Position numbers and translations under genes: made by a program. A model generated the notes under the pieces. It was not told the origin of the DNA, searched no databases, and was given only the letters and a program-made list of their open reading frames with translations. DNA of 24,914 nucleotides from a virus: the IMG/VR virus record IMGVR_UViG_3300008110_000462, positions 1 through 24,914 of that record; one strand, given 5' to 3'. This document shows positions 3,073-18,327 of this stretch, piece after piece. The number at the start of each line of letters is the position of its first letter. Within the stretch, counting starts at the first letter, position 1.

Positions 3073-4685
3073 TGGGACTCCGCACTCGTGTCATGACGGC
3101 CCTTGGATTTGGGTCGAAGCCTGAAGCTCAGCCGGCTCGTCGTCGCCGGCGCACCTATGCGGGTGCGGTGATCAATCGCCTGACGAGCGACTGGATCGCG
3201 AACGGCACCAGCGCCGACGCCGAGATCAAGACCAGTCTGCGGAAGCTGCGGGACCGCAGCCGGCAGATGGTGCGGGACAACCCGTATGCGCGGCAGGCGA
3301 AGCGCACCACGCAGATCAACGTGGTGGGCGGCGGGATCAAGCTGCAGTCGCAGGTGATGAGCCTGCGCGGGAACAAGCGCGACGATCGGATCAACGGCGC
3401 GATCGAAAGCCAGTGGACCCGATGGTGCAGGAAGGAATTCTGCGACGTGGCGGGCAAGAGCAGCTTCAATATGTTCGAGTGGCTGGCCGCCGGTGCGCTG
3501 CCCGAGTCTGGTGAGGTGATCTTCAGGATTCACCGACGGGCGTTCGGTGGCAGCAAGGTGCCGATGGCGCTGGAGATCATCGAGAGCGATCTGCTCGACG
3601 ACGAGTATCAGGGTGCAGTGAGCGCCAAGAACAACGAGTGGCGGATGGGCGTCGAGATCGACCCCTACGGCCGCCCGGTGCAGTATGCGTTCCTGACGCG
3701 GCACCCCGGCGATTATTGGTTCCAGGGGACGCCCGATCGCACCAGTGTGAAACACGTCTTCCTGCCAGCCAGGGATGTTGTTCACCTGTTTATCCCGGAG
3801 CGCCCCAATCAGCACCGAGGCGTGCCGTGGTTTGCGCCGGTGATTGGCGATGCTCATCAGCTGGCCGGCTACGAAGAAGCCGCGGTGGTGCGGGCCCGGT
3901 CGACGGCATCACTGATGGGCTTCATCACATCACCCGAGGGTGAGCTCGAAGCCGATGACGTGGAAGAGGGTCAGCGGATCACCGAGTTCGAGCCTGGGGT
4001 GTTCAAGTATCTGGACGCCGGACAAAACGTGGTGGTGCCCGACCTGAAGTCGCCGGATGCGCAGTATGAGGGCTTCGTGCGGGCGAAGACGCGGCGGTTC
4101 GCCAGTGGTTTCGGCTGTTCCTATGAGACCCTGTCGCGGGACTTCTCTGAGACCAACTACAGCAGCAGCCGGTTGAGCCTGCTCGAGGATCGCGACCACT
4201 GGAAGGTGATCCAGAGCTACCTGATCGAAAATTTCCACACGCGGGTGTTCCGCGAGTGGCTGGATGTAGCGGTGCTCAGCGGTGAGCTGGCGCTGCCGGA
4301 CTACGAGCTGCGGCCAGAGCGCTATGACACACCGCGCTGGATGGCGCGTGGCTGGAGCTGGGTTGATCCGCTGAAGGAGGTGAAGGCCTACCGCGAAATG
4401 GAAGCTGCTGGGTACAAGACCAAAGCGCAAATTGTGGCCGAGCTGGGCGGCGACCTGGATGAGAACCTGCAGCAGATTGCGCGGGAGAAGAAGCTGGCCG
4501 ACGAGCTGGGTGTTCAGCTGGACGCCGACATCGCCGCGGTACAACCGGCCGAGCAGCAGCCGGCTAGCGACGGGGAGCCTGCTTTACCTCCCGAGGCTCC
4601 CCGTCGCACACGCAATTCGCGTCGCAAGAAGGTGAGTAATGTGGATGGAGCTGAATCTGCGCGTCCTGATGGTCCGCTTAACTGA
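3072..4685 (+). CDS. Portal protein, lambda family
   Basis: Forms the ring at one capsid vertex through which DNA enters and leaves, and on which the tail is built. Family signs: an early block with VRDNPYARQAKRTTQINVVG (residues ~73-92), WCRKEFCD and FEWLAAGALPESGEVIFRIH in the clip/stem region, HVFLPARDVVHLFIPERPNQ, and the long helix region after FASGFGCSYETLSRDFSETN. At 537 residues it matches lambda gpB (533). The C-terminus is a charged, low-complexity tail (PAEQQPASDGEPALPPEAPR), probably flexible. It starts on the last base of the preceding stop and ends overlapping the next ATG by one base, so terminase, connector, portal and capsid genes appear translationally linked. Confidence 0.95.
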   Translation: MGLRTRVMTALGFGSKPEAQPARRRRRTYAGAVINRLTSDWIANGTSADAEIKTSLRKLRDRSRQMVRDNPYARQAKRTTQINVVGGGIKLQSQVMSLRGNKRDDRINGAIESQWTRWCRKEFCDVAGKSSFNMFEWLAAGALPESGEVIFRIHRRAFGGSKVPMALEIIESDLLDDEYQGAVSAKNNEWRMGVEIDPYGRPVQYAFLTRHPGDYWFQGTPDRTSVKHVFLPARDVVHLFIPERPNQHRGVPWFAPVIGDAHQLAGYEEAAVVRARSTASLMGFITSPEGELEADDVEEGQRITEFEPGVFKYLDAGQNVVVPDLKSPDAQYEGFVRAKTRRFASGFGCSYETLSRDFSETNYSSSRLSLLEDRDHWKVIQSYLIENFHTRVFREWLDVAVLSGELALPDYELRPERYDTPRWMARGWSWVDPLKEVKAYREMEAAGYKTKAQIVAELGGDLDENLQQIAREKKLADELGVQLDADIAAVQPAEQQPASDGEPALPPEAPRRTRNSRRKKVSNVDGAESARPDGPLN

Positions 4686-6622
4686 TGGATGACACCCGAG
4701 CGATGCACGATCTGACCGAAGAGCAGGTCGCCGCGATTGGCGAAACCGTGAGCGAGGTTGTGGCCGAGCACATGGCTGAAGTTGTCGAAGATGTCGTCGA
4801 AACGCTGTCTGGCGAAGATCCTGAGGCTGAAACGCCTGAAGAGGAGGCCATGGAAGAGCGCAGCCTCGAAGGCAACTACACCCGAACCGAAGTCACCTCG
4901 TTCTCGGAGGTGGAGGATCGGAGCTTCGAGTTCCCCTTCAGCTCCGAGTATCCTGTGGCGCGGTACTTCGGTAACGAGGTGCTGAGCCACGAGGATCGCT
5001 CCGCCGATCTGGCACGTCTTAATGACGGTGCTCCGCTGCTCTTTAACCACAACCCCGACAAGGTTGTTGGCGTAGTGGAGCGCGCATGGATCGACGGCGC
5101 CAAAAAGCGTGGCTACGTAAAGGTCCGCTTCTCTCGCAATAGCTTTGCCAAGGAAGTGATGGCTGATGTCAAAGATGGCGTTCTTCGTGGCGTCAGCTTT
5201 GGTTACGCCATCAACAAGATGGAAGAGCGAGGCGATAACTTCGTAGCCACTGAGTGGAGTCCTTACGAAGTTTCAGTTGTTAGCATCCCGGCAGACCCCA
5301 CTGTGGGTGTAGGCCGGTCGCTCGCGACTGACTCTGCGGCCCCCGCCGCATCACCAACCCCCCAAGAACCTGAGGTTCACATGGAAAACACCCCTGACGT
5401 GGAGGTGATCCGGTCCAAGGCCGCCGAGGCCGAGCGGAGCCGTATCGCCACCATCACCGCACTCGGTGACAAGCATGGTCTCCAAGATCTGGCTCGTGAG
5501 CTGATCGACGGTGGCCGTTCCGTGGACGAGGCTCGCGCCGCTGTCCTCGACAAACTCGACACCCGCAGCTCCAAAGTGGAACACCGCATTGCTGACGAAA
5601 AGGCCAACGATCTTGGTCTCACCGAGAAGGAGACTCGTGAGTTCTCCTTCATCCGCGCCCTGAACTACCTGGCCAACCCTGGCGACCGCAAGGCTCGCGA
5701 GCAAGCTGGCTTCGAGATCGAAGTCGGCGAGGCTGCTGCCAAGAAGTACGAGCGCTCTTCCAACGGGATCGTGATCCCCAACGAAGTGCTGCGTCGTGAC
5801 CTCGTGGTCGGCACCAGCACCGCTGGCGGCAACCTGGTTTCCGCTGAACTGCTGAGCGGCAGCTTCATCGACCTCCTGCGCAATCGCATGGCGATGATGC
5901 AGGCCGGCGTGACGATGCTGTCTGGCCTGCAGGGCAACATCAGCCTCCCGAGACAAGGCTCGGCTGCGACCGCGTACTGGGTAGGCGAGGGCGGCAGCCC
6001 CACCGAGAGCCAGCAGGCAATCGACCAGGTCAACATGACCCCCAAGACTGTGGGTGCATTCGTTGACTACAGCCGCCGCCTGCTGCTGCAGTCCTCGATT
6101 GATGTTGAGGGCATGATCCGCGCCGACCTGGCTCGCGTGATCGCTCTTGAGCTCGATCGCGCTGCGATCTACGGCACCGGCAGCTCCAACCAGCCTCTGG
6201 GTCTGACCAACACCACCGGTATTGGCGCTCAGACCATCACCAGCTTCGGCACCTTCGCCGAGTACATCGGCATGGAAACCGATGTGGCAACCGCCAACGC
6301 TGATGCTGGCTCCCTGCGCTACATCGTCAACGCAGCTGCCCGCGGCGCCCTGAAGAGCACCGAGAAGTCGGCGACCTCGACCGCTCAGTTCGTGTACGAG
6401 AACGACCAGATCAACGGCTATCCGGTGATCGTGTCGAACCAGCTCGGCAACAACGACTGCCTGTTCGGTGACTTCAGCCAGTTTGTGGTTGGCATGTGGT
6501 CTGGCCTGGATCTGACCGTGGATCCCTACGCCGGCTCCACCGCTGGCACTGTGCGGATCATCGCCCTGCAGGACGTTGACTTCGCAGTCAAGCAGCCTGG
6601 CGCCTTCTGCTTCGGCACCTGA
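4685..6622 (+). CDS. Prohead protease-major capsid fusion protein
   Basis: A single 645-residue polyprotein. Residues ~60-212 are an HK97-type (S78) prohead protease with candidate catalytic H122 (LLFNHNPDK), S171 (VLRGVSFGY) and acidic E195 (SPYEVSVVS). An acidic N-terminal extension precedes it. A Pro/Ala linker (about 216-231) leads to a helical delta/scaffold-like segment (about 235-355). The HK97-fold capsid region begins near GIVIPNEVLRRDLVVGT (361-377) and includes NISLPRQGSAATAYWVGEGG and AIYGTGSSNQPLGL. Fusions of this type are known in phages; self-cleavage would release both parts. Met233 at 5381 has its own ribosome site and may yield capsid precursor directly. The first start at 4685 overlaps the portal stop. 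Confidence 0.92.
   Translation: MDDTRAMHDLTEEQVAAIGETVSEVVAEHMAEVVEDVVETLSGEDPEAETPEEEAMEERSLEGNYTRTEVTSFSEVEDRSFEFPFSSEYPVARYFGNEVLSHEDRSADLARLNDGAPLLFNHNPDKVVGVVERAWIDGAKKRGYVKVRFSRNSFAKEVMADVKDGVLRGVSFGYAINKMEERGDNFVATEWSPYEVSVVSIPADPTVGVGRSLATDSAAPAASPTPQEPEVHMENTPDVEVIRSKAAEAERSRIATITALGDKHGLQDLARELIDGGRSVDEARAAVLDKLDTRSSKVEHRIADEKANDLGLTEKETREFSFIRALNYLANPGDRKAREQAGFEIEVGEAAAKKYERSSNGIVIPNEVLRRDLVVGTSTAGGNLVSAELLSGSFIDLLRNRMAMMQAGVTMLSGLQGNISLPRQGSAATAYWVGEGGSPTESQQAIDQVNMTPKTVGAFVDYSRRLLLQSSIDVEGMIRADLARVIALELDRAAIYGTGSSNQPLGLTNTTGIGAQTITSFGTFAEYIGMETDVATANADAGSLRYIVNAAARGALKSTEKSATSTAQFVYENDQINGYPVIVSNQLGNNDCLFGDFSQFVVGMWSGLDLTVDPYAGSTAGTVRIIALQDVDFAVKQPGAFCFGT
5371..5383 (+). promoter_or_regulatory. 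Internal ribosome site and ATG for capsid part
   Basis: TGAGG at 5371-5375 lies 5 bases before an in-frame ATG at 5381, inside the protease-capsid fusion and immediately after the proline-rich linker. Initiation here would make a 413-residue product containing only the delta-like segment and the HK97-fold capsid domain, a normal length for a free major capsid precursor. Lambda uses the same trick to make scaffold from within its protease gene. Use of this start is inferred. Confidence 0.5.
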
Positions 6623-9286: not shown

Positions 9287-11323
9287 GTGGCTGTTGCCCA
9301 TAGTGCTGCCTCAGAGTCGCACACAGGTGCGACTGGTTCAGCAAGCCAGGCAGCGTTCAGCTGGACGCATACGCAGACGGGCACGCCGCGGGGCGTGGTC
9401 GTTTTTGTGTCCACCTACGCCAGCGTCACCAGCCTCGTCACCAGCGTCACCTATGGAGGCGTAGCGCTCACGCGCCTTACCGGCGGCTTGGCGCAGGATG
9501 CTGCTGGTGAGCTTGGCCGCCTCGACACCTTCTTCCTCGGCAGTGGCCTCGGCACCGGTAACCAGACCATCACGGTCAACCGGACCAACAACGCCACCGT
9601 CATGTATGCGGCGGCAGCCACCGTCACCGCTGGCGCCAACACCGCAGTCCCCGAAGCAACCATCGTGCTGCTCCAGGGCGACGGCACCTTGGCAGCGCAG
9701 ACCGTTAATGACACCTCACCGGGGCAGAACAGCGTCCGCTATGCGGGCTGCTACTCCGGCCTAAACGCGCCACCAACGGCTGGTACGGGCAGCACGCTGC
9801 TCAACAGCATTGACATCGGCAACTACGGCTCGGCGCTGGTGCGCGAGACCACCGCCGGCCAAGGCGCCCGCAGCATCGGCTTCACTGGTGCCACGGACGA
9901 CCGCGCTGCAGTCCACCTCGCCATCCGCGAGCTGGTGCCGCGGAGTCTTCCGCAGACGGTCGCCAGCTTCACGCTGACGGGCAACGACGCCACCTTCACC
10001 AAGGCCAGCCCGAAGGAGATCGCCGCTGAGACAGGCGCGTTCACCCTGACCGGCAACCCGGCTGATCTGCTCCACGGCCCAGATCTACTGGCAGAGGTTG
10101 GTGCGTTTGCCCTGAACGGCAACCCAGCCGATACCCGCCACAACGTCCGCCTCGAGGGCGGCACTGGGGCGTTCACGCTGGCGGGGCAGCCGGCAACGCT
10201 GAGCAAGACTGCTGCGGCGAAGGTTCTCACAGCCGAGACAGGCGCCTTCGCCCTGAACGGAGGGCTGCCGACTTTCAAGGTTGCTTATCGCATTGATGCA
10301 ACGGCTGGGCAGTTCAGCTTCACTGGTAATCCCGCTGGACTGGCTGATACCGACAAGTTAGTAGCTGAAACTGGCGCCTTCAGCCTCGCAAGCAATGGCG
10401 CCACTCTGCGCCAGAACTACGCCATCACCGCCGAGGTCGGCACTTTTGCCGTTACCGGCCAACCAGCAACGCTGCGCCATAACCCGCGCATCCCGATCAC
10501 CGTCAGCTCATTTGCACTGAACGGCGGCAACCCTGCGCTGCTGCGCGGCCGTTACCTCAGCGGCGGCACTGGCACCTTCACCGAGACCGGCCAGCCTGCC
10601 ACCTTCCGCCGCACCTGGGCCATCCAAGGCGGCACCGGCAGCTTTACCTTCACTGGCACCCCCGCTGGCCTGACCGAGCTGGGCGCCTACGAGATCGACC
10701 CGATCGCCGGCAGCTTCACGCTTTCGGGTCAGCCGGCCAGCCTGGCACAAAGCCAGAGCCTGCCGATCACGGTCGGCACCTTCGCCTTCACTGGCCAACC
10801 CGCCACGCTGCGCCACAACCCGGCGCTCGCTGCCGATCGCGGTCAATTCACCTTTACCGGGCAGCCCGCTGCACTTAAGCAGGGCTATCGGATCGACGGT
10901 GGCACCGGAGCATTCGCCTTTACCGGCAACCCTGCAACGCTTGCCAAGTCGGCAGCCAAGCAGCTCACGGCAGTTGCGGGTGTCTTCACGCTTGCTGGCC
11001 AGCCGGCAACACTCCGAGCCAATGCAGCGCTGACTGGCGAGCGCGGTCAATTCACCCTGACCGGTCAACCGGCAACCCTCGCCCGCACTCGTCAGATCGT
11101 CGGTGCTCGCGGCCAGTTCCTGCTAAGCGGCAACCCGGCATCGCTTACGGTCGCCTACTCCATGCTCGGCGGCCGTGGCGCATTCACGTTCACGGGCAAC
11201 CCCGCTGGCCTGACTGACACTGATGAGCTCGCCGCCGCCACTGGAGCATTCACCTTCACCGGCCTCTCCGCAACGCTCGCTAAGGCCAGCACGGCCCGCC
11301 GCCGCAACGTGCTGATCTTCTAG
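9287..11323 (+). CDS. Large repeat protein: beta domain plus ~20 tandem repeats
   Basis: A 678-residue protein of unknown function, likely on the virion surface. Residues ~1-220 form a beta-rich domain (PRGVVVFVSTYASVTSLVTS, VTYGGVALTRL, NQTITVNRT), ending AVHLAIRELVPRS. From residue ~223 to ~668 there are about 20 copies of a ~22-residue repeat with consensus G-x-F-(T/A)-(L/F)-(T/N)-G-(Q/N)-P-A-x-L, then a variable half. The end is basic (ARRRNVLIF). GTG at 9287 is chosen because GGAGG lies ~9 bases upstream. No catalytic motif is seen. I recall similar GxFxLTGxxAxL repeats in other phage genomes, unnamed. A beta-solenoid or fibre stalk is the likeliest shape, by inference. Confidence 0.65.
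   Translation: MAVAHSAASESHTGATGSASQAAFSWTHTQTGTPRGVVVFVSTYASVTSLVTSVTYGGVALTRLTGGLAQDAAGELGRLDTFFLGSGLGTGNQTITVNRTNNATVMYAAAATVTAGANTAVPEATIVLLQGDGTLAAQTVNDTSPGQNSVRYAGCYSGLNAPPTAGTGSTLLNSIDIGNYGSALVRETTAGQGARSIGFTGATDDRAAVHLAIRELVPRSLPQTVASFTLTGNDATFTKASPKEIAAETGAFTLTGNPADLLHGPDLLAEVGAFALNGNPADTRHNVRLEGGTGAFTLAGQPATLSKTAAAKVLTAETGAFALNGGLPTFKVAYRIDATAGQFSFTGNPAGLADTDKLVAETGAFSLASNGATLRQNYAITAEVGTFAVTGQPATLRHNPRIPITVSSFALNGGNPALLRGRYLSGGTGTFTETGQPATFRRTWAIQGGTGSFTFTGTPAGLTELGAYEIDPIAGSFTLSGQPASLAQSQSLPITVGTFAFTGQPATLRHNPALAADRGQFTFTGQPAALKQGYRIDGGTGAFAFTGNPATLAKSAAKQLTAVAGVFTLAGQPATLRANAALTGERGQFTLTGQPATLARTRQIVGARGQFLLSGNPASLTVAYSMLGGRGAFTFTGNPAGLTDTDELAAATGAFTFTGLSATLAKASTARRRNVLIF
9953..11290 (+). 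repeat. ~66-bp coding tandem repeat array, about 20 units
   Basis: Units of about 66 bases (some 69-75 from small insertions) encode the GxFxLTGxPAxL repeats of the preceding gene entry. Copies are diverged at the DNA level but keep the phrases for TGQPATLR and TGNPAGLT. Units 8 and 13 share TGQPATLRHNP, while 8 and 12 share PITV at their ends, hinting at duplication of multi-unit blocks. Reading frame is kept throughout. Confidence 0.85.
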
Positions 11324-12882: not shown

Positions 12883-13209
12883 ATGGCTTTCGTCCGAAAG
12901 AAGTCTTCATCCTTCAAGTGGCCCGTCACCGTCGAATTCCCCGTCGACGGTGGCCGTTTTGAGAGCGAGTCATTTGACGCGATCTTCAAGCGCATCGGTC
13001 GCAAGGAGTTCCAGAGGCTGATCGACAAGGGCGATCTCGATCTGATTGAGACCGTCCTCGAGGGCTGGGAGGGCGTGAAAGACGAGTCCGGTAAGGACAT
13101 CCCGTTCACGTCTGCTGCACTGAAGGACATGCTCGATGACCCTTGCTTCACCAAGGGCGTCATCACGGCATACCTCGCCAGCCTGGAGGGGGCGAAGGCA
13201 AAAAACTAA
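12883..13209 (+). CDS. Tail assembly chaperone, G-like
   Basis: A 108-residue acidic, helical protein (GRFESESFDAIFKRIGRKEF, then QRLIDKGDLDLIETVLEGWE) located between tube and tape measure, where lambda has gpG. Such chaperones coat the tape measure protein during tail assembly and are absent from the virion. The gene ends GCA AAA AAC TAA, so the last sense codons form an A-AAA-AAC slippery heptamer at 13200-13206. A -1 shift there fuses it to the following frame to make a ~217-residue GT-type protein, while normal termination gives G alone. The ATG follows an AAGGA ribosome site. The assignment rests on order, size and this signal. Confidence 0.85.
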   Translation: MAFVRKKSSSFKWPVTVEFPVDGGRFESESFDAIFKRIGRKEFQRLIDKGDLDLIETVLEGWEGVKDESGKDIPFTSAALKDMLDDPCFTKGVITAYLASLEGAKAKN

Positions 13210-13234
13210 AGGACGCGGCCCGCTACTGGGCCGC
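13200..13234 (+). promoter_or_regulatory. -1 programmed ribosomal frameshift signal
   Basis: Slippery heptamer A-AAA-AAC at 13200-13206 is in the correct phase for the G frame. An 8-base spacer follows (13207-13214), beginning with the G stop codon TAA. Next comes a perfect 7-bp GC-rich hairpin: GCGGCCC at 13215-13221 pairs with GGGCCGC at 13228-13234 around a 6-base loop. All three standard parts of a -1 frameshift site are present with standard spacing, and the -1 frame encodes a T-like protein. Confidence 0.9.
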
Positions 13235-13535
13235 AGCCGGCGGTGAGAAGGACGAGACCGAGGACGATGCCCGATTGATGGGTATCGTCCTTCCTCCGTC
13301 TGCAGAGGAGTCAGACGAGTTTGAGGTATGGGATGACAACTGGGACATCGTCATGATGTTCCTGCGCATGCAGACCCAGTGGAACGTCGTGATGGGCGGC
13401 TTCACCGGGTTGAAGTATGAGGTGCTGCGCTGGTTGTGCGACCTATACTCGGTGGAGGACCCCAAAGCCATGCTGGAGGGCATCCAGATCATGGAAGCTG
13501 CCGCCCTCGAGGAGCTGAACAAGAACGATGGCTGA
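13206..13535 (+). CDS. Chaperone T part, reached by -1 frameshift (DUF1799-like)
   Basis: The frame entered after slippage reads LKDAARYWAAAGGEKDETED and continues through WDDNWDIVMMFLRMQTQWNV, then VMGGFTGLKYEVLRWLCDLY, to a stop at 13535. The W..NW...F....TQW....GG..GL.Y pattern is that of DUF1799 proteins, the T-like partners in tail chaperone pairs. Within these codons there is no start with a ribosome site suited to independent translation, so it should be made only as the C-terminal half of GT, about 217 residues in total. T binds tube protein and brings it to the G-coated tape measure in lambda. The end overlaps the tape measure start by 8 bases. Confidence 0.85.
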   Translation, partial: LKDAARYWAAAGGEKDETEDDARLMGIVLPPSAEESDEFEVWDDNWDIVMMFLRMQTQWNVVMGGFTGLKYEVLRWLCDLYSVEDPKAMLEGIQIMEAAALEELNKNDG

Positions 13536-16500
13536 GTCGGTCGCACGGGTAAAAATCCTCGCCCAAATTGAAGGGCTGGAGGGTTTCGACAAGCTCAAAG
13601 GCGCGTTCAAGGGCCTGCAGCAGGCGATTGGGCCGGCTGACGCTGACCTGAGCAAGGCGCGGAAAGAGATTCTTGAGTTTGGGAAGGCCGGAGCCAAGAC
13701 CGAGCAGGTCATCCGCGGGCAGGTTGATGCGCTGAAAGCGCTGCAGGGACAGGCTTCGATTAGTGGGAGTGTTTATCGGAAGCTGAGCCAGGACATAAAG
13801 GCGCTTGATAATACCTACAAGGAAGCAACGAAATCTGCGGCAGAGTTTCGGGCGGAGCAGGCCAAGGTTCGCAACCAGATCCCAGCTGCTAAAGAGAGGA
13901 CACTTGCCAACCAGCTGGCACCATTCAAAGCCGAGCTGCAAGAAGCAAGTGTCTATGCTCGACGGTACGGTGAGCTGCTGGCAGAGATTGAGCGCCAGCA
14001 AAAACCATTTGATCGCGCTGTAGCTCGTCAGCGCGTCATCGGAAGCGCCGAGGCCCTTCGGATGGGGCCGCTGCAAGCGCAGCAGGCATTGCCCGCCCTG
14101 CCCGACACGACCGCCGGCCTGAACCAGCGCCTGAGCGAGCTCAACGCCGATTTTGTCAATCTCGCCCGCGGTGGCGACCGCTGGATCCAGGTCTCTCGCG
14201 AGATCGCTAACGTCCAGCGCCAGCTCAACCAAGAATTCGCCAACCCTGCTGTCGAAGCTGCTCGTCGCCGCCTCGAGGCCAGTCGCAACACCAGCAGCGG
14301 CTTTCTGGCGTTCTCGTCGGGGCTCGAGGATCGACTGGCAGTCCAGAAATCGATCGAGCGTAACCGCCGCAATCAGCCCGCAGCTTTTTATTCGGCGCCG
14401 CTTGATCGCCCTCGTCCACCTAGCGAGCTATTCCGCAACATTGCCGGAATCAGTAATGCGACAGCATCTAATCAGCTGCAGTTTATGGAGCGAAGCTACG
14501 CGGAGGTGGCCGCGAGTATCCGCGAAGCAACCAAGGCTTCAGATGGCAGCATTAACAGCCTGCGAGCGCAGCGCAGCGCTTGGGAGGCACTGCGAAATAC
14601 GCTCGGCCAGGACAAGGCGGCTTTGCGTGAGGTGAGCAAGGAGCTCGCCATCATTGACAGGCAGCTCGAAAAGCGCGGCGTTGGCAGTGGCGGTGGCCGA
14701 ATCGGGAAAGGCGTCCAGGCATTTGGCGCCATCGCATCTGGCGCCATCTTTGGCGGCCCTGAAGGAGCTCTTGGCGGCCTCGCCGGGGCTGCGATCGGCG
14801 GGGTGCCTGGAGCATTCGCTGGTGCGGCTATCGGTGGCACGGTGAGCACTGCTCGCCAACAGATTGGCCAACTTGCCACCTACGCCGCCGACATCAGCAA
14901 GCTCGAGATCGCGCTGAAGGGTGTCACGAAGACGCAGGAGGAGTACCAGCGAGCACTGGCGGCATCGGCATCGGTCACCAAAGACTTCAATGTTCCTCAG
15001 CTTGAAGCCACCAGAGGCATGACGCAGCTCAGCGCTGCGGTGATCGGCGCTGGCGGCAAGGTAGCGGATGCCGAAGTGGTGTTCCGCAACGTGACCGCTG
15101 CCATCAAGGCAAGCGGCGGCACTTCGGAGGATGTGCAGGGCGCCCTGACTGCTCTTGGCCAGATTTTCTCGAAGGGCAAGGTCTCCGCCGAAGAACTGCA
15201 GGGCCAGCTTGGTGAGCGCCTGCCAGGCGCGGTGACGATGTTTGCCAAGGCCACCGGGCGCACCCTGCCGCAGCTGCAGAAGGATCTCGAGCAGGGTGCG
15301 GTCGGTCTCGCGGACCTGATGAAGTTCGTGGTGTCTGATCAAGGCCTCGGGCAATTCGAGCAGCGAGCGAAAAGTGTTGCGGATTCGTCGGCCGAAGCCG
15401 GCGCCCGTCTGACCACCACCTGGAACGACACCAAGCGTGCGATCGGCGAGGCGCTCATGCCCCTAGGGGCGGAGATTCAGGATTCGCTGGCGAAGGCGCT
15501 GCGTGATGCGACGCCGGCGCTGGTTGGCTTTGCGAAGGGATTTGCATCTCTCGTTCAGCTTTTTGCTGACAACGCAGGACTCATTTCTGGCGTTCTCAAA
15601 ACACTGCTGGGCTTTGGGGCGATAGCCGGTGCTGCGATTGGCGTAACACAGCTAGCTGGCGCAATGAGAGGCCTCGCGCTTGGAATTCAAGGTCTCGGGG
15701 GTGCAATGGTAACCGCCAGACTTGCGGCACAGTCTCTGAGCATTTCAATAGCGGCGATTCCTGGTATCGGCTGGGTTGCGGCTGGCATTACGGCGCTGGG
15801 ATTGCTGACCGTTGAACTTTATAACAATAATGACGCATTTAGGACATGGGTCAACAATCTTGGCACCGTTATCTCGAGCGACTTTAAGAATGTGTGGGAC
15901 GGCGCTGTTTCTATCGTCTCCAGGGCAACAGACGCCATAGTCGACGTATGGAATGGCGCTAGCAATCTTATTTCCTCGATTGGGCAGGGAATTGCAAATC
16001 AGTTTGATAATCTTTTTGGCGGCCTGTTTAGCAAGATTCAAAGCTTCTGGAATGGACTGCCTGAGCCTGTTCGTCGGGCGATGTCTCAAAGTGCAAGTAA
16101 CGCAGTCGGTGGACTGCTTGCTCCTGGTAATCCTGCGCTTGCCTATGGAATTGGCGCGGGAGTTCGAGCGGCTCAGATGGGGCCCAACGCACAAGACAGT
16201 GCGATGTTTGGTCGGTATGGCACCGCTGATGGGCAGACCAGTCCAGCAGCCTCTGCCCTGACCGATTGGCAAATCCAGCAAGACCAGAAAGACGCAAAGG
16301 CAAAGCAGGCCGCAGACAAGGCTCGCGCTGAAGCTGAGCGGTTAGCTGCCGAACAGCAGCGTTTAGATAAAGCCGTTGCCAAAGCCGAGATTCAGCTCGC
16401 CCAGACGGTCTTCAACAACCAGATGGAGCTGGTCAAGAAGCGTTACGACTACGAGCAAGAGCGCATTCAGATGCAGCGCGACATCTGGGCGGGCACATTT

Positions 16501-18327
16501 GAAGGCGTCAAAAACGAGTCTGCTCGCGCATTTGTCGAGCTTCAGAACCGTCTTGGTGAATTGCGCAAGCGGTTATTTGAATCTGATCTTGATATCAAGC
16601 GGGCCCAGCAAGAGCTGACTTCGGCTACTCGAATGGAGGCTGTCACATCGCAGGGCATTGCCGGCAGCGGCGGTGGCGTCGCGACCACCGGCATCATCGC
16701 GCGCACCGGCAACACCGGTCAGAGCACTGGCGCTCATCTTGACCTGCGATGGGGCGACGGGCGGCCGATTACTCGAGCCGACGCAGACAAATACTTCCTG
16801 ATCAACGGCAAGGCACCCAGCTCGTTCGGCGTCACCAGCGGTTACGGCCCTCGCAGCCTGTTTGGCCGCAGCTTCCACGCCGGAATTGATTTCGGCACTC
16901 CGGCTGGATCGGGCATCAGCCTGAAGGGTGGAGCCAAGTTTGGCCGCGACCTTGGCAACACCGGCGCCGGCGGCTACGCGATCGAGGTGATGACGCCGGA
17001 GGGCACCATGCGCGCCCTGCACCTCATGGCGGGCAGTGTCATGCGCGCGACGCCAGGCGCCCCCGCCGGCGCCGGTGCCCAGGTGCGACGTGACGTGCGC
17101 GCCGAAGGCGGTGTGGGTATCGCTTCTGCAGGGCTCGGTCAGGCACGAGCAATTGCTGGGCTTGACAAGGCGCAAGTGCAAGGGCTGGAGATGCTGATCC
17201 CGCAGCAGTACGCCCAGCAGCAGACGCAGGGGCTGCGCGATCAGGCGAAAGCGCTGGAAGACACGAATGCGCTGTTTGCCAAGCGGATCCAGCTTGAGGC
17301 GCAGGGTATGCGGCCTGAGCTCTTAGACGCGCAGATGCGAATCAATGAAGTCGATCAGGAGCGCTCCGACAAGCTGGCCCAGCTCAACGAAAACCTGCGC
17401 ATTGCCAAGGATCTGCAAAATCCAACCCTGATCGCCTCGGTGCGGGATGAAATCGAACTCACAAACGCCGCCTACGAGCGTCAGATCACCGCAATCAACG
17501 CACTGGCTCAAGCGCAGACCGCTGCCGGAGTGGCGCTTTCAGGTCGCATCGGCCAGCTGCGGCAAGAGCTTGAGCAGCTCACCAATTTCGAAAACGTAAT
17601 CATCAGCGTCTCGCAGTTGATGGAGACCGAGATCAGTGGCGCCATCGGCTCGGCAGTTACAGGACTCGTCACCGGCAGTCAGACGATTAAGCAGACCCTG
17701 TCGCAGATGTTCTCCAACATCGGCCAGGCATTTGTGCAGATGGCAGCCGAAATCATTTCCAAGCAGCTGGTGATGATCACGCTGCAGACGATCCTCAAGG
17801 CGCTCGGCGCGGTTGCTGGCGGCGGTGGGGGCCTAGAGCCAAATACCGCGGCTGGCAACGCTGGCTTCATGGATCGAGTATTCAGTACAGACCTTGCGGG
17901 ATCCGCTTACCCCTTCGCTAAAGGCGGCGTGATGACCTCCCGCGGCCCTGTTCCCCTGAAGAAGTACGCCCGTGGCGGCATCGCCAACCGTCCCCAGTTG
18001 GCGCTCTACGGCGAGGGAAGCAAGCCCGAGGCCTACGTGCCCCTGCCAGACGGCCGGCGCATTCCGGTGGCTCTGCAGGGGCAGGACAAGATGCGTGAGG
18101 CGATGGGTGCAGGCCCGACGCAGGGCGGTGGCAGCCCGGTGCTGAACATGAGCTTCCAGAGCACCAGCATCGGCGGCGTCGAATACGTGAGCCGCGACCA
18201 GCTCGAGGCTGCGATGGCGCAGACCCGGCGGCAGGCCTCCCGTGATGGTGCCAAGCGCGGGATGTCGATGACACTCGATAAACTGCAGCAGAGCCCATCG
18301 ATTCGTTCCCGTGTGGGGCTGCGCTGA
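13528..18327 (+). CDS. Tape measure protein with permuted M23-like peptidase domain
   Basis: A 1599-residue ruler that sets tail length and is likely ejected ahead of DNA. Order: helical coiled N-terminus (1-385); glycine-zipper hydrophobic segment (386-437); tape-measure N-terminal domain (~450-600, with FRNVTAAIKASGGTSEDVQG and ELQGQLGERLPGAVTMFA); hydrophobic stretches (~685-766); Lys/Gln/Ala coiled coil (~910-1040); an M23/LytM-like region (~1050-1180) with H1070 in TGAHLDLRW, H1117/D1121 in FHAGIDFG and H1165 in ALHLMAG; helical C-terminus; and a terminal Gly/Pro segment (KKYARGGIANRPQLALYGEG). The M23 motifs are in rotated order. At ~1.5 angstrom per residue the tail would be up to ~240 nm. 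Codons about 15540-16170 are AT-richer than their flanks. Confidence 0.93.
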   Translation: MAESVARVKILAQIEGLEGFDKLKGAFKGLQQAIGPADADLSKARKEILEFGKAGAKTEQVIRGQVDALKALQGQASISGSVYRKLSQDIKALDNTYKEATKSAAEFRAEQAKVRNQIPAAKERTLANQLAPFKAELQEASVYARRYGELLAEIERQQKPFDRAVARQRVIGSAEALRMGPLQAQQALPALPDTTAGLNQRLSELNADFVNLARGGDRWIQVSREIANVQRQLNQEFANPAVEAARRRLEASRNTSSGFLAFSSGLEDRLAVQKSIERNRRNQPAAFYSAPLDRPRPPSELFRNIAGISNATASNQLQFMERSYAEVAASIREATKASDGSINSLRAQRSAWEALRNTLGQDKAALREVSKELAIIDRQLEKRGVGSGGGRIGKGVQAFGAIASGAIFGGPEGALGGLAGAAIGGVPGAFAGAAIGGTVSTARQQIGQLATYAADISKLEIALKGVTKTQEEYQRALAASASVTKDFNVPQLEATRGMTQLSAAVIGAGGKVADAEVVFRNVTAAIKASGGTSEDVQGALTALGQIFSKGKVSAEELQGQLGERLPGAVTMFAKATGRTLPQLQKDLEQGAVGLADLMKFVVSDQGLGQFEQRAKSVADSSAEAGARLTTTWNDTKRAIGEALMPLGAEIQDSLAKALRDATPALVGFAKGFASLVQLFADNAGLISGVLKTLLGFGAIAGAAIGVTQLAGAMRGLALGIQGLGGAMVTARLAAQSLSISIAAIPGIGWVAAGITALGLLTVELYNNNDAFRTWVNNLGTVISSDFKNVWDGAVSIVSRATDAIVDVWNGASNLISSIGQGIANQFDNLFGGLFSKIQSFWNGLPEPVRRAMSQSASNAVGGLLAPGNPALAYGIGAGVRAAQMGPNAQDSAMFGRYGTADGQTSPAASALTDWQIQQDQKDAKAKQAADKARAEAERLAAEQQRLDKAVAKAEIQLAQTVFNNQMELVKKRYDYEQERIQMQRDIWAGTFEGVKNESARAFVELQNRLGELRKRLFESDLDIKRAQQELTSATRMEAVTSQGIAGSGGGVATTGIIARTGNTGQSTGAHLDLRWGDGRPITRADADKYFLINGKAPSSFGVTSGYGPRSLFGRSFHAGIDFGTPAGSGISLKGGAKFGRDLGNTGAGGYAIEVMTPEGTMRALHLMAGSVMRATPGAPAGAGAQVRRDVRAEGGVGIASAGLGQARAIAGLDKAQVQGLEMLIPQQYAQQQTQGLRDQAKALEDTNALFAKRIQLEAQGMRPELLDAQMRINEVDQERSDKLAQLNENLRIAKDLQNPTLIASVRDEIELTNAAYERQITAINALAQAQTAAGVALSGRIGQLRQELEQLTNFENVIISVSQLMETEISGAIGSAVTGLVTGSQTIKQTLSQMFSNIGQAFVQMAAEIISKQLVMITLQTILKALGAVAGGGGGLEPNTAAGNAGFMDRVFSTDLAGSAYPFAKGGVMTSRGPVPLKKYARGGIANRPQLALYGEGSKPEAYVPLPDGRRIPVALQGQDKMREAMGAGPTQGGGSPVLNMSFQSTSIGGVEYVSRDQLEAAMAQTRRQASRDGAKRGMSMTLDKLQQSPSIRSRVGLR

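Follow-up and report, generated by a model that had tools for sequence, protein, structure and literature searches.

A phage tape measure protein carries an M23/LytM-like domain with motifs in circularly permuted order and an aspartate at a metal-ligand position

Peptidases of the M23 family (MEROPS M23B), including LytM, lysostaphin, ShyA, EnpA and Csd3, are among the best studied peptidoglycan hydrolases, and the definition of the family rests on motif order (HxxxD, third His, HxH) and on the HxH motif itself. Among virion proteins, motif 3 of the tape measure protein (TMP) of TM4 is a peptidoglycan hydrolase that promotes the injection of DNA into cells in stationary phase (PMC1796659), and the M23-like hub peptidase of A-1(L) lyses Anabaena (PMC10966104). 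Circularly permuted NlpC/P60 enzymes (LRAT-like, YaeF) resemble the domain reported here in having a peptidoglycan-hydrolase fold with a swapped order of catalytic residues (cited in PMC6403190), albeit in an unrelated cysteine-enzyme fold. No description of a permuted M23/LytM domain was found in the literature searched, which gave partial coverage with few subscription papers, and the words "circular" and "permut" are absent from an M23 review (PMC9662197). The rearranged domain reported here seems to be undescribed so far.

The window, i.e. the whole stretch of DNA analysed, is a 24,914-base virus record from IMG/VR. Clustered on it are head and tail genes, among them those for a GpA-type terminase, a lambda-family portal, head proteins, a tail tube, a tape measure, a minor tail protein and a fibre-type protein. 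The gene carrying the domain and its TMP_3 region are located as follows.

13528-18327, plus strand: tail tape measure protein of 1599 aa, host of the domain (TMP_3, tape_meas_nterm, PHROG)
14869-15441, plus strand: TMP_3 region, TMP residues 448-638 (Pfam, 6e-21)

In addition to TMP_3, NCBIfam tape_meas_nterm matches TMP residues 525-594 (3.4e-15) and PHROG tape-measure families match the ORF at 13528-18327, which is flanked by a chaperone-type frameshift pair just upstream and a minor tail gene downstream. The two tail-assembly-chaperone-type ORFs, 12883-13209 and 13143-13535 (PHROG 569/313 and 680), overlap, and a slip site, A AAA AAC at 13200-13206, lies in frame just 5' of the first chaperone-type stop; by its layout, this pair upstream of the tape measure gene is the classical -1 frameshift arrangement. 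Elsewhere in the cluster, a 645-aa ORF (4685-6622) has matches to head maturation protease families as well as to major head protein families, which suggests a fused protease and capsid protein, and a 678-aa ORF (9287-11323) between the head and tail genes has no PHROG match. A Synechococcaceae MAG contains two contigs with close relatives, which points to a picocyanobacterium as the likely host of this phage.

The domain of about 130 residues (TMP residues 1049-1179, GGVATTGIIARTGNTGQSTGAHLDLRW ... SSFGVTSGYGPRSLFGRSFHAGIDFG ... GGYAIEVMTPEGTMRALHLMAGS) presents H1070 and D1072 first, then H1117 and D1121, and finally H1165. Its parts, with the evidence for each, are listed below.

16672-17064, plus strand: putative circularly permuted M23-like domain, TMP residues 1049-1179 (profile matches, permuted HMM, model)
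16693-16752, plus strand: first segment, IIARTGNTGQSTGAHLDLRW, residues 1056-1075 (phmmer, HMM, profile, model strands)
16735-16749, plus strand: HLDLR signature with H1070, D1072 and R1074 (census, alignment, codons)
16753-16830, plus strand: linker between the former C- and N-termini, residues 1076-1101, with a short helix (model)
16831-17037, plus strand: second segment, VTSGYGPR...FHAGIDFG...ALHLMAGS, residues 1102-1170 (HMM, alignment, model, profile)
16876-16890, plus strand: HAGID, with H1117 and D1121 as the HxxxD metal-ligand pair (invariant in 48 aligned relatives)
17020-17022, plus strand: H1165, third catalytic His, at the position of His260 of LytM and His78 of EnpA (invariant in 48 relatives)

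The first segment corresponds to the C-terminal piece of canonical M23 domains (a strand plus the HxH strand) and contains H1070, D1072 and R1074, and the second corresponds to the N-terminal and middle piece and contains S1104, R1109, H1117, D1121 and H1165. The linker, whose helix spans model residues 35-41, differs in length among subfamilies. Codons for H1070, D1072, H1117, D1121 and H1165 start at 16735, 16741, 16876, 16888 and 17020, respectively, and were verified in the ORF 13528-18327, in agreement with the first-pass annotation of this DNA, which had named these five residues. Sequence comparison shows that the old C-terminal HxH-type piece has come to stand first and been joined through the linker to the old N-terminus, and that the new chain ends fall in the loop which follows the motif of the third His.

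Conventional searches catch little of this domain. Pfam gave no M23 match at E 0.001 in the whole window, and its M23 profile covers 27 residues around the first motif (profile 60-86 of 96) with 17.2 bits, below the curated cut-off of 28.7. When the domain alone was searched with phmmer against solved structures, the M23 chains 5kqb and 9gy1 were each matched by two stretches in swapped order. A profile of 48 relatives compared with solved structures (PDB) matched ShyA with E=1e-10, 3slu with 2e-10, lysostaphin with 4e-6 and LytM with 2e-3, and other M23s with values up to 1e-8. In ShyA, profile positions 41-117 align with chain residues 240-316 and positions 2-33 with residues 332-363, and among the matches listed the later part of the profile lies ahead of the earlier part in solved M23 chains.

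The order was also addressed with an HMM of 21 canonical M23 sequences, mostly cyanobacterial, which was rotated through its cut points. The HMM in natural order gave two separate matches to the window domain, of 16.5 and 16.3 bits, with the model's later part preceding its earlier part. With the HMM cut after the third-His motif and ahead of the V..G..V..G segment, a single continuous match of 35.7 bits resulted, whereas the top score among 2000 shuffles of the window domain was 6.1 bits and a canonical control sequence fell from 137 to 70 bits once the HMM was permuted. Eight relatives behaved like the window domain, and 142 ORFs, among all ORFs of the relatives' loci collected by then, preferred the permuted HMM. 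As judged from these comparisons, the reversed motif order is not due to chance.

It could still be argued that nothing is permuted: an M23 domain of canonical order, lying upstream, might end in the first motif, or the similarity to M23 might be due to chance. The modest pairwise scores and the 27-residue Pfam match would suit this reading, but no M23-type HxxxD occurs upstream in the TMP, relatives begin at the first motif, and the same order recurs in 129 distinct domains. Stand-alone relatives start at the permutation point, so that a lost upstream half is ruled out; together with the rotation test and its shuffles, these stand-alone members refute the reading, to which we give practically no credence. 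The first-pass annotation had suggested a permuted M23-like peptidase with reversed motifs and had itself raised pairing with an upstream HxxxD as the objection; its suggestion has held up on both the M23-like identity and the permutation. We put the probability at roughly 0.8 that the domain is a circularly permuted M23/LytM derivative that retains the metal site, likely serves as an entry endopeptidase, and has one detectable origin.

Structure prediction also bears on the permuted order. AlphaFold gave a pLDDT of 78 and a pTM of 0.75 with a shallow alignment, and one compact domain with a pLDDT of 86.8 and a pTM of 0.83 with a deeper alignment. When mapped from the sequence, model strands 10-12 and 22-27 correspond to the strand preceding the canonical HxH and to the HxH strand itself; strands 54-56, 72-75 and 81-84 to LTS, GIDF and PIRAA; and strands 89-96, 102-108 and 111-118 to GVVIYSGW, the GYG..VIVDH strand and TTLYAH. 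The predicted strands thus fit the canonical M23 elements one-for-one, in permuted order. Against an M23 fold, Foldseek searches of PDB with two models matched no M23 structure; Foldseek follows chain order, yet it did not pick up the second segment by itself either. In BFVD, only four matches were significant (S-TIM5, P60, an uncultured TMP and one unnamed protein), and the matches listed included no ordinary phage M23. Two candidates for a solved permuted case were rejected: the A-1(L) hub has canonical order by the HMM, and 9m7n Gp16 has its two segments in canonical order.

TMPs are oligomeric in tails, and the first segment of one copy might therefore complete the active site of its neighbour, with no permutation within the chain. 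Such swapping would likewise yield canonical segments in reversed order; however, stand-alone proteins of about 200 aa show the same order, and AlphaFold predicts a compact monomer with confidence, which makes a segment swap very improbable compared with an intramolecular permutation.

Like M23 enzymes, the permuted domain has two segments homologous to theirs and a similar predicted strand set, the HxxxD pair, the third His and the first His of HxH. Of the features that mark Peptidase M23 (PF01551), sequence homology, the HxxxD metal motif and the additional catalytic His were found, the last of these standing before HxH in canonical M23 and last in the permuted chain as H1165; HxH, the chain order HxxxD-third His-HxH and a score at the Pfam cut-off were not. 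No ordinary M23 enzyme among those compared has its reversed order (HxD, HxxxD, His), and the domain further differs in having Asp for the second His of HxH, Arg or Lys for Glu or Gln two residues later, no recognisable V..G..V..G segment and a Pfam score below the cut-off. Since motif order and HxH define M23 and the domain has neither, we file it as a permuted derivative rather than as an ordinary M23 domain.

By homology, H1117, D1121 and D1072 would form the metal site, H1070, at the position of the catalytic base, and H1165 would be the water-activating histidines, and R1109 is a candidate oxyanion-stabilising residue. S1104, R1109, H1117 and D1121 have the same spacing as Ser16, Arg21, His29 and Asp33 of EnpA, in which the ligand His111 is held by Glu113 (PMC8269130). 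D1072 occupies the ligand position, His in canonical M23, and R1074 the second-shell position, Glu or Gln in canonical M23, so that the usual ligand His and second-shell Glu would be replaced by D1072 and R1074. In the alignment of 48 sequences, with identity down to 23%, the columns of H1070, L, S1104, G, R1109, H1117, D1121, G, L and H1165 are invariant, and D1072 and R1074 are kept at 90% or more.

The first-pass annotation had read Asp in place of the second His (HLD) and asked whether the family shares it. It does: Asp occupies the ligand position in 127 distinct domains out of 129, and His in the other two, in a set that includes many close relatives within subfamilies, so that the counts are not independent events. 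Beyond that annotation, the Asp is coupled to Arg (126) or Lys (1) at the +2 position (127/127), and the two His-form domains have Gly and Glu there. Ligand and second-shell partner thus seem, from their covariation, to have been exchanged pairwise, from His-Glu to Asp-Arg. Canonical-order M23s showed no HxD in the sample inspected, which comprised a few phage sequences and about 20 from bacteria, cyanobacteria among them. In the comparison of L050/L052 with L042, one hub-borne copy reads HLHAG and close relatives HLDAR, the ligand and the second-shell residue having changed together.

Degenerate M23 domains such as EnvC are known, and the permuted fold might be real while its Asp-ligand form is dead or non-cutting, merely binding peptidoglycan or spacing the tail. 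In favour of this reading, 127 of the 129 domains no longer have the canonical HxH, and the P60 copy lacks its first ligand His. Against it, all metal and catalytic positions are fixed across >70% sequence divergence, whereas degeneration usually shows as simultaneous drift of several sites, and Asp is itself a good metal ligand, shares its position only with His and covaries with a second-shell partner. We consider a dead form unlikely. Most likely, the domain is a permuted endopeptidase, derived from M23 and still active, that would open peptidoglycan during DNA entry, with metal, substrate and timing predicted from its relatives and setting.

Also beyond the first-pass annotation, the module occurs outside tape measures and recurs in many unrelated phages. 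When viral contigs were scanned for three subfamilies, relatives were encoded at 161, 141 and 48 places, and at least 129 distinct relatives share the permuted order. Annotated phages with related domains are Cyanophage S-TIM54, Acinetobacter vieuviruses, Moraxella Mcat phages, and Synechococcus phages S-EIVl and P60. The window and two other loci (L059, L060) carry the domain in TMPs, and L042 carries it at the C-terminus of a gpD-like hub (PF05954, 3e-14). The host protein of S-TIM54 is a structural protein and that of P60, gp33, is a virion protein of 1000 aa whose PHROG family stops where the permuted domain starts; both also carry Phage_lysozyme2. Short host proteins of about 200-245 aa occur in the S-EIVl group and at two cyanobacterial genome loci; their start coincides with the HLD motif or lies a little ahead of it, the ATG of the two cyanobacterial ones (L186, L187) being at the strand just before HLD. 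The first-pass proposal of a distinct phage domain is supported for a domain of tails and virions. Viral contigs scanned for relatives of the short cyanobacterial protein gave none, those scanned for the S-TIM54 domain gave just one match, partial and in canonical order, and the P60 domain had no match in PDB. In P60 gp33 (domain residues about 876-1000), HLDVK and the last His are kept and the first ligand His is lost (SFGVD); some family members may thus be inactive.

All annotated multi-domain hosts are virion proteins of the kind that cross or contact the wall at entry, and with the TM4 and A-1(L) precedents, this leads us to take the domain as an entry endopeptidase. At infection, the TMP would leave the tail tube and expose the domain in the periplasm of the picocyanobacterial host, where it would bind a metal, probably zinc, and cut peptide cross-links, probably between D-Ala and diaminopimelate, letting the DNA channel pass the wall. 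Like other lytic TMPs (TM4 motif 3, PMC1796659; M23-bearing TMPs), the window TMP has an embedded muralytic-type domain expected to act at DNA entry; unlike it, ordinary TMPs of this kind rely on motif 3, a lytic transglycosylase or an M23 domain of canonical order. The match of the Listeria phage B054 TMP to the domain is limited to the HxxxD part. The peptidase domain of the A-1(L) hub gp15 (PMC10966104) is likewise virion-borne and M23-like and, as predicted for the window domain, acts on a cyanobacterial wall, its lytic activity being demonstrated; it differs in having canonical order by the HMM test and in retaining HxH.

A widespread clade that Pfam and NCBIfam miss or half-see implies that phage wall-opening domains are under-annotated. 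The signature HLDxR ... HxGxD ... LH would make this type of entry enzyme recognisable in cyanophages and other tailed phages, and the clade offers a natural test of how much circular permutation and ligand replacement a metallopeptidase fold tolerates.

In a tree built after the rotation had been undone by script, permuted and canonical domains split on one branch with 96/84 support, to which linker columns may add, and several long branches leave finer placements unsure. The split is compatible with a permutation that arose once, and the module, with a single detectable origin, would have spread among phages as an entry-stage module. More tentatively, and at somewhat less than even odds, we propose a phage-specific permuted M23 clade of single origin, mobile among siphoviruses, myoviruses and podoviruses, whose charge-swapped metal site alters metal preference or substrate range. 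In S-TIM54, the permuted domain is directly preceded by a weak M23-like stretch (L142, OP053362.1 112767-113000; E 0.003), which is degenerate, has canonical order and might be left over from the tandem duplication that is expected to come before a circular permutation.
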